A stretch of DNA of 64,000 nucleotides from Anaeromyxobacter sp. Fw109-5 (GTDB lineage Bacteria > Myxococcota > Myxococcia > Myxococcales > Anaeromyxobacteraceae), in assembly GCF_000017505.1 (NCBI RefSeq), contig NC_009675.1, positions 1,798,001 through 1,862,000 on the forward strand. Direction: 5' to 3'. The notes under the pieces are model-generated. The model saw only the letters and a list, made by a program, of their open reading frames with translations, was not told the DNA's origin and did not search any database. Below, piece after piece: positions 5,725-10,070 of the stretch (within the stretch, counting starts at the first letter, position 1; the number at the start of each line of letters is the position of its first letter). The position numbers and the translations under genes are program-made.

Positions 5725-7323
5725 GTGAAGCGGAAGATCGGTCGGCGGGCGTTCCTGTCGCGCGCATCCCTCGGGATCGCCGCGGCGGCCACGGGCGGCA
5801 GCGCGCTGGCGCAGATGGGCGGCGGTGGGATGGGCGGCGGGGGAATGGGCGGCGGGGGAATGGGCGGCGGGGTGGTCGATCCGCCGGTCGGCTCCGCGCT
5901 CGCGGATCCTCCCGTCGCGGCGAACGCCTCCACGACCGCGGGCGTCGTGGACGTGACCATCGAGGCGCGCCTGGCGGAGATCGACCTGAACGGCACGCGG
6001 GCGACGCTGCTCACGTACGACGGGAGCTTCATCGCGCCGACGATCCGCGCGCGGAGCGGCGACGAGGTCAGGCTTCACTTCCGCAACGGGCTTCCGCCCA
6101 CGGGCGACACGAACCTCCTCGGACACGAGAAGTACGTCACCAACGTGCACGTCCACGGCTGGCACGTCTCGCCGGGCGACGTGAACGGCTACCCCGCGGA
6201 CGACGTCCACCTGACGCTGTCTCCCGCCCAGAGCCAGGAGTACAGGTACGATCTGGCCATGCAGCGCCCGGGGTCGATCGGGCTGTATCACCCGCACGTG
6301 CACGGCTCGGTGGCCGAGCAGTACTGGGGCGGCCTCGTCGGCGCGCTGGACGTGCAGGACGACGCGCGCGAGGGCTCGGGGATGGCGTCGATCACGGCGC
6401 TCGCCGGCGTCGACACGCACCTCGTGGTGCTGAAGGACATCACGATCGTCGGCGGCGCGCCTGCTCCGTACGAGTCGCTACGGGACTACATGCACGGCAA
6501 GGAGGGGCAGCTCGTCACCGTCAACGGGCAGGTGAACCCGTTCCTCTCGATGCGGCCGGGCGAGGTGAAGCGGCTGCGCATCATCAACGCGTCGAACGCC
6601 CGCTTCTACCGGCTGTCGCTGCAGGGCCACGCGCTGCACGTGGTCGGAACCGACGGCGGCCTCCTGGACCGGCCCTACGCCGTCACGGAGATGCTGCTCT
6701 CGCCGGGTGAGCGGCTGGACGTGCTCGTGAAGGCGAGCTCCTCGAAGGGGAGCTACAAGCTGCTCGCGCTCCCGTACGCCCGGATGGGGAACATGGCGTC
6801 GGCCCAGGTGACGCTCATGACGGTGAAGGTCTCGGGCTCGCGCGCGAGCGGCGCGATCCCGGCCATCGTGAACGGAACCGCGGCCAGGCTGGACGAGACC
6901 GCGATGGAGCCGAAGCGCGTGCGCTTCGTGCTCAGCATGGGTCAGGGTCGCGGCTACGTGAACGGGCGGACCTTCGTGAGCCCCGAGGACGCTTACGTGC
7001 ACATGTCGGACGTGGGGACCGACGAGCTCTGGGAGATCGTGAACGACAGCGGGATGGACCACCCCTGGCACCAGCACGTGAACGACGGCCAGGTCGTCGC
7101 CGCCTCCGGCGGCGACGCGGCCTTCGCCGCGTACGCGAGCTTCCTGACGCTCGCGCCCGCCTGGAAGGACACCATCATCATCCCCAAGGGAGGGAGCGTC
7201 ACGATGCGCCTCCCGATCCGCGATCACACCGGCATGACGATGTGCCACTGCCACATCCTCGAGCACGAGGACATCGGCATGATGGCGATGTGGCACATCA
7301 TGGGGGAGGGGATGCCGATGTGA
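5725..7323 (+). CDS. Tat-exported multicopper oxidase with Met/Gly-rich N-terminus
   Basis: A 532-residue periplasmic oxidase that would couple one-electron substrate oxidation to O2 reduction. A twin-arginine signal (GRRAFLSRAS, residues 6-15) ends near ALAQ. It is followed by four MGGGG-type repeats (residues 31-49), an unusual flexible Met-spaced stretch that could bind or pass copper. All four copper-ligand motifs are present: HVHGWH (142-147), HPHVHG (189-194), HPWHQH (about 440) and HCHILEHEDIGMM (508-520) with the T1 Cys, His and axial Met. Length fits three-domain CueO/bilirubin-oxidase-like enzymes. The downstream response regulator gene is 155 bases away. Likely roles are copper or metal detoxification; the substrate is unproven. 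Confidence 0.93.
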   Translation: MKRKIGRRAFLSRASLGIAAAATGGSALAQMGGGGMGGGGMGGGGMGGGVVDPPVGSALADPPVAANASTTAGVVDVTIEARLAEIDLNGTRATLLTYDGSFIAPTIRARSGDEVRLHFRNGLPPTGDTNLLGHEKYVTNVHVHGWHVSPGDVNGYPADDVHLTLSPAQSQEYRYDLAMQRPGSIGLYHPHVHGSVAEQYWGGLVGALDVQDDAREGSGMASITALAGVDTHLVVLKDITIVGGAPAPYESLRDYMHGKEGQLVTVNGQVNPFLSMRPGEVKRLRIINASNARFYRLSLQGHALHVVGTDGGLLDRPYAVTEMLLSPGERLDVLVKASSSKGSYKLLALPYARMGNMASAQVTLMTVKVSGSRASGAIPAIVNGTAARLDETAMEPKRVRFVLSMGQGRGYVNGRTFVSPEDAYVHMSDVGTDELWEIVNDSGMDHPWHQHVNDGQVVAASGGDAAFAAYASFLTLAPAWKDTIIIPKGGSVTMRLPIRDHTGMTMCHCHILEHEDIGMMAMWHIMGEGMPM

Positions 7324-7478
7324 CGGCGGCGCCCTTCGGTCCCGGCGGTGCTGGGAACGAGGTCGCGTCACGGCCGCCGAGTCAGGGCGCCGGCGAAAGG
7401 GGGCATGGCTCGGTCGCTCGACCGCCGCCCTTGCGCCGCGCGCCCCGCGGCCCCACGGTTCGGCGGAGGGAGCCGACC

Positions 7479-7916
7479 GTGATCGAGGAAGTACAGCCGG
7501 GGACCCGGCCGGGGTCCGCGGAGGAGACGAACGTCCAGGACGAGCGCCGGCTCGACCCGCGCGCCAGCGTGCTCGTCGTGGAGGACGAGCACGAGCTCAG
7601 GGAGCTCATCGCGCGCTGGCTGGAGACGCGGAGCTATCGCGTGGTCGAGGCGGCCGACGGTCACGACGCAGTCGAGCTGCTCCAGGCGGGGCTCGAGCCG
7701 GACGTGATCCTGCTCGACCTCACCATGCCGCGGATGGACGGCCGAGCGTTCCTCGACTGGCTCCGCTCCCAGCCCGAGCATCGCCACCGACCCGTCATCG
7801 TCGCGAGCGCCTACCTCGAGGACGAGCCACCGCTCGACGCCGAGCGGACCTTCTCGAAGCCGTTCCGCCCCGATCTCCTCGAGCGCGAGCTCGCGCGGCT
7901 CGTGGCCGGAGATTGA
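7479..7916 (+). CDS. Receiver-only response regulator
   Basis: A 145-residue single-domain response regulator. Acidic pocket residues are in VLVVEDEHE, the phospho-acceptor Asp in ILLDLTMPRMDG, the switch Ser in VIVASAYLED and the conserved Lys in TFSKPF. No output domain follows, so it should act by phosphotransfer or protein contact, as CheY-like proteins do. The start chosen is GTG at 7479, with CGGAGGG seven bases upstream; about 25 variable residues precede the receiver. No kinase gene is adjacent, although the hybrid kinase at the window start is 6 kb away. Confidence 0.88.
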   Translation: MIEEVQPGTRPGSAEETNVQDERRLDPRASVLVVEDEHELRELIARWLETRSYRVVEAADGHDAVELLQAGLEPDVILLDLTMPRMDGRAFLDWLRSQPEHRHRPVIVASAYLEDEPPLDAERTFSKPFRPDLLERELARLVAGD

Positions 7917-7983
7917 CGGCGTTCGACGGCCGATGCGGGCCGATCGCCGGGCGCCCGAGGCGCCGGCGGCGTATCCTTCGCCG

Positions 7984-8463
7984 GTGGGAAAGCTCTTCCT
8001 CCTCTTCACCGTCGTCCCGCTGGCGGACCTCTGGCTGCTCCTGCGGATCGGCGGCGCGATCGGCTTCTGGCAGACCGTCGCGCTCATCGTCCTCACCGGC
8101 GCCGCCGGCGCGTGGCTCGCGCGCGCGGAAGGAACCCGCGTCCTCCGCGCCTGGCAGGCGGCGCTCTCCGCGGGCCGGCCACCGGAGTAGGGGGTGCTCT
8201 CGGGCGTCCTGTTGCTCGCCGGGGCAGCTCTCCTCGTGGCGCCTGGCGTGATCACCGACGTCGTCGGGCTGGCGCTGCTCTTCCCACCGACGCGCCGCCT
8301 CGCCGCCGCGGGGGTGCGTCGCTGGCTCGAGCGCCAGGCGAGGACGGGGCGGGTGCGGGTGTTCACGGTCGGAGGAGCGAGGCCGGGGAGCGCCTCGACC
8401 TCGCCCGACGGCGAGATCGACGTGACGCCGCGCCGTCCGCCGCGATCGGGCGCCGCCGGGTAG
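7984..8463 (+). pseudogene. fxsA: FxsA-family membrane protein interrupted by an in-frame TAG
   Basis: The reading frame encodes the FxsA cytoplasmic-membrane family from GTG 7984 (GKLFLLFTVVPLADLWLL) through FPPTRRL to the stop at 8461-8463, about 159 residues, the usual family length. A single TAG at 8188-8190 splits it between helices 2 and 3: the first piece ends LSAGRPPE and the same frame resumes immediately with GVLSGVLLLAGAALLV. Nothing else is missing, and family members have an uninterrupted helix-turn there, so a one-base change from GAG would explain it. The downstream piece does have a GTG (8194) that could restart translation. Readthrough, restart, true inactivation and sequencing error are all possible. 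Confidence 0.82.
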
Positions 8464-8651
8464 GGGATCCTGCGCGGGGCTACGCCGCGGCGCGGGCGAT
8501 CTCTCGCCCGACGCCCAGCGGCCGCTTACGACCCAACGAGCCCGCGCGCGGGCGTGTTGGCGGGAACGCACGCCGATATGCGTCTGCCCTGCACGCGCCC
8601 CGCCGGTGGCTCTTCCCTCCGACGTGGGCCTGCGCGCGGACGGAGGCTGAA

Positions 8652-10070
8652 ATGGCGAACGTGATGCCGAGGAACCAGGACCGGGCGCTGACGCCGGAGC
8701 TGCTCGCGCCTCTCCGCGAGCAGCTCCGCGGGGCGCTTTGCCTGCCTGGAGAATCCGGGTACGAGCAGGCGCGCACCCTCTGGAACGCGATGATCGATCG
8801 CCACCCTGCCGCGGTGGTGCGCGCCGCGGGTGCGGCCGACGTGATGCGCGCCGTGGCGTTCGCGCGGGAGCACGACGTGCTGCTCTCGGTTCGCGGCGGC
8901 GGGCACAACATCGCCGGGAACGCGGTGTGCGAGGGCGGGCTCACGATCGACCTCACCCCGATGAAGTCGGTGCGCGTGGATCCCGGCCGCCGCACGGCGC
9001 GCGTCGAGCCGGGGGTCACGCTGGGCGAGCTCGACCGCGAGACGCAGGCGTTCGGCCTGGTCACGCCGGTCGGCGTCAACTCGACGACGGGGGTGGCCGG
9101 GCTCACGCTCGGCGGCGGCTTCGGCTGGACGAGCCGCAAGCTCGGGCTCACCGTCGACAACCTGATCTCCGCGGACGTGGTCACCGCCGACGGAAGGCTC
9201 CTGCACGCGAGCGAGGACGAGAACGCGGACCTGTTCTGGGCCATCCGCGGCGGCGGCGGGAACTTCGGCGTGGTGACCTCCTTCGAGTTCCGCCTGCACC
9301 CCCTCGGCCCGACCGTGCTGGCCGGTCTCGTGATCCACCCGTTCGCCCGGGCGAGGGAGCTCCTCGGCGAGTGGCGGCGCATCGTCGCCGCCGCCCCCGA
9401 CGAGCTCACCGCCTGGGTGGTGCTGCGCAAGGCGCCCCCGCTGCCGTTCCTTCCCGCCGAGGTCCACGGCACCGAGATCCTGGTGCTCGCCATGTGCTGG
9501 ACGGGAAACGTGGAGGACGGCCAGAAGGCGCTCGCCCCCCTCCGCGCGCTCGGCAAGCCGCACGCCGATGTCGTCGGACCCGTCCCGTTCGTCGCCTGGC
9601 AGTCGGCGCTCGACCCGCTCCTCACCCCGGGGGCGCGGAACTACTGGAAGTCGCACGAGCTCGCCGAGGTCGGCGACGGGGCGCTCGACGTCCTGGTGGA
9701 TCATGCCGGACGTCTGCCCACCCCCGAGTGCGAGGTCTTCCTCGGCGCCCTCGGCGGCGCGGTGAGCCGCGTACCGGCGGACGCCACCGCCTACCCGCAC
9801 CGCGACGTCCCGTACTTCGTCAACGTCCACACGCGCTGGAGGGATCCGGCCGAGGACAGCGTGTGCGTCGGGTGGGCGCGCGCGCTGTTCGACGCGCTCG
9901 CGCCCCACGCCACGGGCGGCGTGTACGTGAACTTCATGCCGGAGGACGAGGCGCAGCGCGTCCGCCCGGGCGCGTATGGCGCGAACTACGACCGCCTCGC
10001 GAGGATCAAGGCGAAGTACGACCCGGACAACCTCTTCCACCTGAACCAGAACATCCGCCCCGCGGGATAG
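8652..10070 (+). CDS. FAD-dependent oxidoreductase, berberine-bridge-enzyme-like
   Basis: A 472-residue flavoprotein of the FAD_binding_4/BBE family, which oxidises sugars, alcohols or alkaloid-like compounds. The PP-loop with the flavin-linking His is RGGGHNIAGN (His85). The second FAD segment is GVAGLTLGGGFGWTSRKLGL. The BBE C-terminal signature YDPDNLFHLNQNI closes the protein. The second covalent flavin link in bicovalent members is a Cys ahead of the GGG segment; here the region reads TPVGVNSTTGVAG with no Cys, so only single His attachment is expected. There is no signal peptide, so it is probably cytoplasmic. The ATG is preceded by GGAGG. Confidence 0.9.
   Translation: MANVMPRNQDRALTPELLAPLREQLRGALCLPGESGYEQARTLWNAMIDRHPAAVVRAAGAADVMRAVAFAREHDVLLSVRGGGHNIAGNAVCEGGLTIDLTPMKSVRVDPGRRTARVEPGVTLGELDRETQAFGLVTPVGVNSTTGVAGLTLGGGFGWTSRKLGLTVDNLISADVVTADGRLLHASEDENADLFWAIRGGGGNFGVVTSFEFRLHPLGPTVLAGLVIHPFARARELLGEWRRIVAAAPDELTAWVVLRKAPPLPFLPAEVHGTEILVLAMCWTGNVEDGQKALAPLRALGKPHADVVGPVPFVAWQSALDPLLTPGARNYWKSHELAEVGDGALDVLVDHAGRLPTPECEVFLGALGGAVSRVPADATAYPHRDVPYFVNVHTRWRDPAEDSVCVGWARALFDALAPHATGGVYVNFMPEDEAQRVRPGAYGANYDRLARIKAKYDPDNLFHLNQNIRPAG

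Follow-up and report, generated by a model that had tools for sequence, protein, structure and literature searches.

An in-frame amber codon in the single-copy fxsA of Anaeromyxobacter sp. Fw109-5, a probable recent nonsense pseudogene

The fxsA frame and its neighborhood

The window, that is, the whole stretch of 64,000 nucleotides of the Anaeromyxobacter sp. Fw109-5 genome that was analyzed, carries a reading frame of the FxsA family (PF04186), interrupted once by an in-frame TAG and located between genes encoding a response regulator and a FAD-linked oxidase. In window coordinates, the following features make up the locus.

7242..7916, + strand: response regulator, the upstream neighbor (PF00072, 69.5 bits), with a true start probably later than 7242
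7984..8187, + strand: N-terminal part of fxsA, 68 codons with a GTG start, encoding the first hydrophobic region (PF04186, 63.2 bits; positive coding score)
8184..8196, + strand: candidate restart site read from the sequence, with GGAG at 8184-8187, 6 nt, and GTG at 8194-8196 (an ORF is listed at 8194-8463)
8188..8190, + strand: in-frame TAG at a position where a Glu codon is near-invariant (Glu in 30 and Asp in 2 of 32 relatives)
8191..8463, + strand: C-terminal part of fxsA, 90 codons and a terminal TAG, encoding the second hydrophobic region and a basic tail (PF04186, 45.4 bits)
8652..10070, + strand: FAD-linked oxidase with a BBE domain, the downstream neighbor (PF01565 and PF08031)

Translated from the + strand, positions 7984 to 8463 comprise 160 codons; the last is a TAG (8461-8463), and codon 69 (8188-8190), also TAG, is the only other stop, so that the family frame is not a single uninterrupted one. 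A profile search of the whole genome for FxsA returned one match, above the gathering score (E 8e-33, 114.9 bits), which extends over the entire profile (positions 1-109 of 109) when read through the one TAG; no second copy was found in this search, and fxsA is accordingly present in a single copy. When scored alone, the N-terminal and C-terminal halves each exceed the PF04186 cut-off of 25.2 bits as well, and they cover adjoining profile positions, 1-63 and 66-109, without a frameshift. The original prediction, made from the sequence, of one FxsA frame cut once by TAG 8188-8190 is thus borne out in both coordinates and description by the translation and the profile search, and its further claim that the frame is intact on either side, with nothing missing and a total length typical of the family, agrees with the profile coverage and with a start and length that match those of the relatives. 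An open frame of 90 codons would arise by chance in about 45% of cases, as estimated from the frequency of stop triplets in the window, so the open frame 3' of the TAG is unremarkable by itself in GC-rich DNA, and it is the homology that marks it as non-random. Hydropathy of the product is high at approximately residues 8-41 and 74-95, and the TAG falls in the polar loop that separates these two hydrophobic regions.

The surroundings of fxsA differ among related genomes. An orthologue of the response regulator is encoded in four congeners, all of which lack fxsA: in two of these (G005 and G008) both the response regulator and the oxidase are present, kilobases apart and with no fxsA between them, and the other two (G003 and G004) encode the response regulator and likewise lack fxsA. 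A search for an fxsA orthologue at the equivalent place in the congeners therefore led to the response regulator, and in some of them the oxidase, with fxsA absent. The gap between the response regulator and the oxidase is about 0.7 kb here, with fxsA inside it, and about 6 to 14 kb in the two congeners, a difference in spacing which indicates that the region (window positions 7242-10070) has been rearranged. In the other member of the family that has fxsA (G010), neither neighbor was found within the 12 kb taken.

The interrupted codon in FxsA relatives

The interrupted frame was aligned with 32 FxsA proteins of other genomes, one genome per species; 31 of these proteins come from members of the same class, of which one belongs to the same family, and the other comes from a Baikal Myxococcales MAG. 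The codon aligned to the TAG is a sense codon in all 32, specifying Glu in 30 (GAG in 21 and GAA in 9) and Asp in the remaining 2, and most relatives have the motif P-E-E-G around this column where the sequence reads P-E-stop-G here. A stop at a position where 32 of 32 relatives encode Glu or Asp, within a frame that is otherwise conserved, is the pattern by which a nonsense pseudogene is recognized. Across the phylum, FxsA matches were found in 78 genomes, and an internal stop occurs only in this one (0 of the other 77); consequently, no split, two-gene fxsA was found among the relatives in the phylum. A single change from GAG to TAG had been proposed as the source of the stop, with GAG in relatives as the expected state and a pair of separate genes in relatives as the contrary one; GAG at this position in 21 of the 32 relatives and GAA in 9 fit the proposal, and no gene pair was encountered among the FxsA matches of the phylum.

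The remainder of the gene is well preserved. Among the columns that are near-invariant, defined as at least 90% identical in the other 32 sequences, this fxsA keeps 22 of 24 in the C-terminal half and 20 of 26 in the N-terminal half. Retention of 22 of 24 such columns downstream of the stop, with no further lesions, suggests that the change is young, and decay that is visible at one codon only points to an event that is either recent or spurious.

The second of these possibilities, that the TAG entered the assembly through faulty base calling or cloning and that the gene is intact in the living organism, has to be considered because one substitution in an otherwise undecayed gene looks identical to an error. 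The genome of Anaeromyxobacter sp. Fw109-5, of about 5.28 Mb and 73.5% GC, was completed by Sanger sequencing, and the figures stated for it are fewer than 1 error in 50,000 bases, a minimum quality of 30 at each base and coverage of more than 98% of the sequence by at least 2 independent clones (PMC4319575); the assembly is a single contig of 5,277,990 bases. The stated rate permits up to approximately 100 wrong bases genome-wide and hence a few false stops, which gives the error reading a modest probability. Against it stand the base quality and clone coverage, our own estimate that, for a particular gene of 480 bases, the probability of an error creating a stop lies far below 0.1%, and the dispensability of the gene in this lineage, given which a genuine loss would be easily tolerated; on balance, an assembly error appears doubtful.

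This dispensability is evident from the distribution of the gene. Of the 24 genomes of the family that were searched, 2 have fxsA and 22 do not, and none of the eight congeners has it (0/8). The gene thus has a patchy distribution in this bacterial family, which can dispense with it; by comparison, it is present in most large genomes of family f6 among those listed. In a tree of FxsA proteins, this copy is placed near those of G010, G092 and the Baikal MAG; the branches are long and the inner nodes weakly supported, and the copy may have been acquired by vertical descent or by transfer. In a gene of this kind, a tolerated nonsense mutation is unsurprising.

Taken as a whole, the evidence indicates that fxsA in this strain is probably a recent pseudogene produced by a single nonsense (amber) substitution, and we infer that the living strain does carry this mutation, which would be of recent origin and would have abolished function. 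The simplest route would be a G-to-T change turning a GAG (Glu) codon into TAG. Translation would then halt after 68 residues, in the loop that joins the two hydrophobic regions, and the full-length FxsA membrane protein would not be produced.

Possible suppression, readthrough and restart of translation

Two routes by which the downstream half could still be translated were weighed against a nonsense pseudogene. In the first, readthrough or suppression of the TAG yields full-length FxsA, which would be compatible with the frame being intact on both sides of the TAG and with the coding signal that continues past it. A covariance search of the genome for tRNAs identified 48 genes over the threshold and three weak matches below it; ARAGORN assigned a CUA anticodon to none of the 48 and did not recognize any of the three weak matches as a tRNA, so that no tRNA reading UAG was found in the genome. 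Release factor 1 is encoded (514 bits), and TAG is a common genuine terminator: in a 464-kb sample of the genome (the window and stretches L099-L118), the 251 confident ORFs end in TGA in 170 cases, TAG in 76 (about 30%) and TAA in 5. TAG is therefore not rare as a terminator, nor is RF1 absent, as would be expected under amber recoding. Moreover, no relative has a stop at this position, which speaks against a conserved recoding site. The original prediction had listed a suppressor or readthrough event among the plausible causes and suggested a search for an amber-suppressor tRNA; that search, made genome-wide, found none, and the option is left without support. TAG suppression is unlikely, and full-length FxsA made by this route is extremely improbable.

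In the same 464-kb sample, a same-frame coding signal is more common after TAG (15/90) than after TGA (3/158). Genome-wide reassignment of TAG was considered and rejected as the explanation, since most continuations after TAG proved on inspection to be adjoining genes that begin at an ATG of their own a short way past the stop, and the few others resemble spurious frames; a signal of such origin provides no evidence of suppression.

A separate observation concerns a 186-nt unit containing a sequence similar to tRNA-Glu(ttc), with a score of only 31 bits, which occurs four times at 3,074,442-3,084,505 of contig C1. One copy adjoins an intact tRNA-Glu and three lie 9.6 kb downstream at a spacing of 136 nt, an arrangement that suggests incomplete tRNA-Glu copies on either side of an inserted element.

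In the second route, translation stops at the TAG and reinitiates at GTG 8194 by means of the GGAG at 8184-8187, and the two membrane pieces reassemble as a split FxsA. The Shine-Dalgarno-like GGAG is suitably placed, 6 nt from the GTG, the frame of the C-terminal half is intact and the break falls in the loop that separates the hydrophobic regions, a polar stretch, so that each piece could insert into the membrane. However, the GGAG is a by-product of Pro-Glu codons and the GTG of a valine codon, and a start-type codon is present within four codons of the site in only 9 of 33 sequences, this fxsA counted. As the relatives mostly lack such a codon, GTG 8194 is better viewed as a coincidence of the coding sequence than as a conserved signal. 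In addition, none of the relatives has a split gene, and a single young event requires no functional reading. As judged from the sequence, a C-terminal piece may be translated from GTG 8194, but reinitiation followed by reassembly of the pieces is improbable, and a natural two-piece FxsA, with the halves delimited by the TAG stop and the GTG restart assembling into a working protein, is highly improbable. If true, it would represent a simple natural fission of a membrane protein by one point mutation.

Comparison with known systems

A recent nonsense pseudogene thus remains the preferred reading, and the annotation of fxsA should label it as a probable pseudogene, or as a site for resequencing, and not as two genes. 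Like genes in which UAG is recoded as pyrrolysine or read by a suppressor tRNA, fxsA has an in-frame TAG within a conserved protein, but it differs from them in that a UAG-reading tRNA is lacking, RF1 is present, TAG is a common stop and the site is not conserved as TAG. FxsA of E. coli, when overproduced, relieves the exclusion of phage T7 by the F plasmid. The product encoded here resembles E. coli FxsA and the PF04186 family in matching the whole profile (1-109), in having two hydrophobic regions and in sharing its start and length with the relatives, and it departs from the family in the one in-frame TAG that replaces a near-invariant Glu/Asp. No difference was found from an ordinary bacterial nonsense pseudogene, with which it shares the single lesion, the intact remaining frame and the absence of the gene from relatives; a pseudogene created by a single nonsense change in a dispensable gene is real but ordinary.
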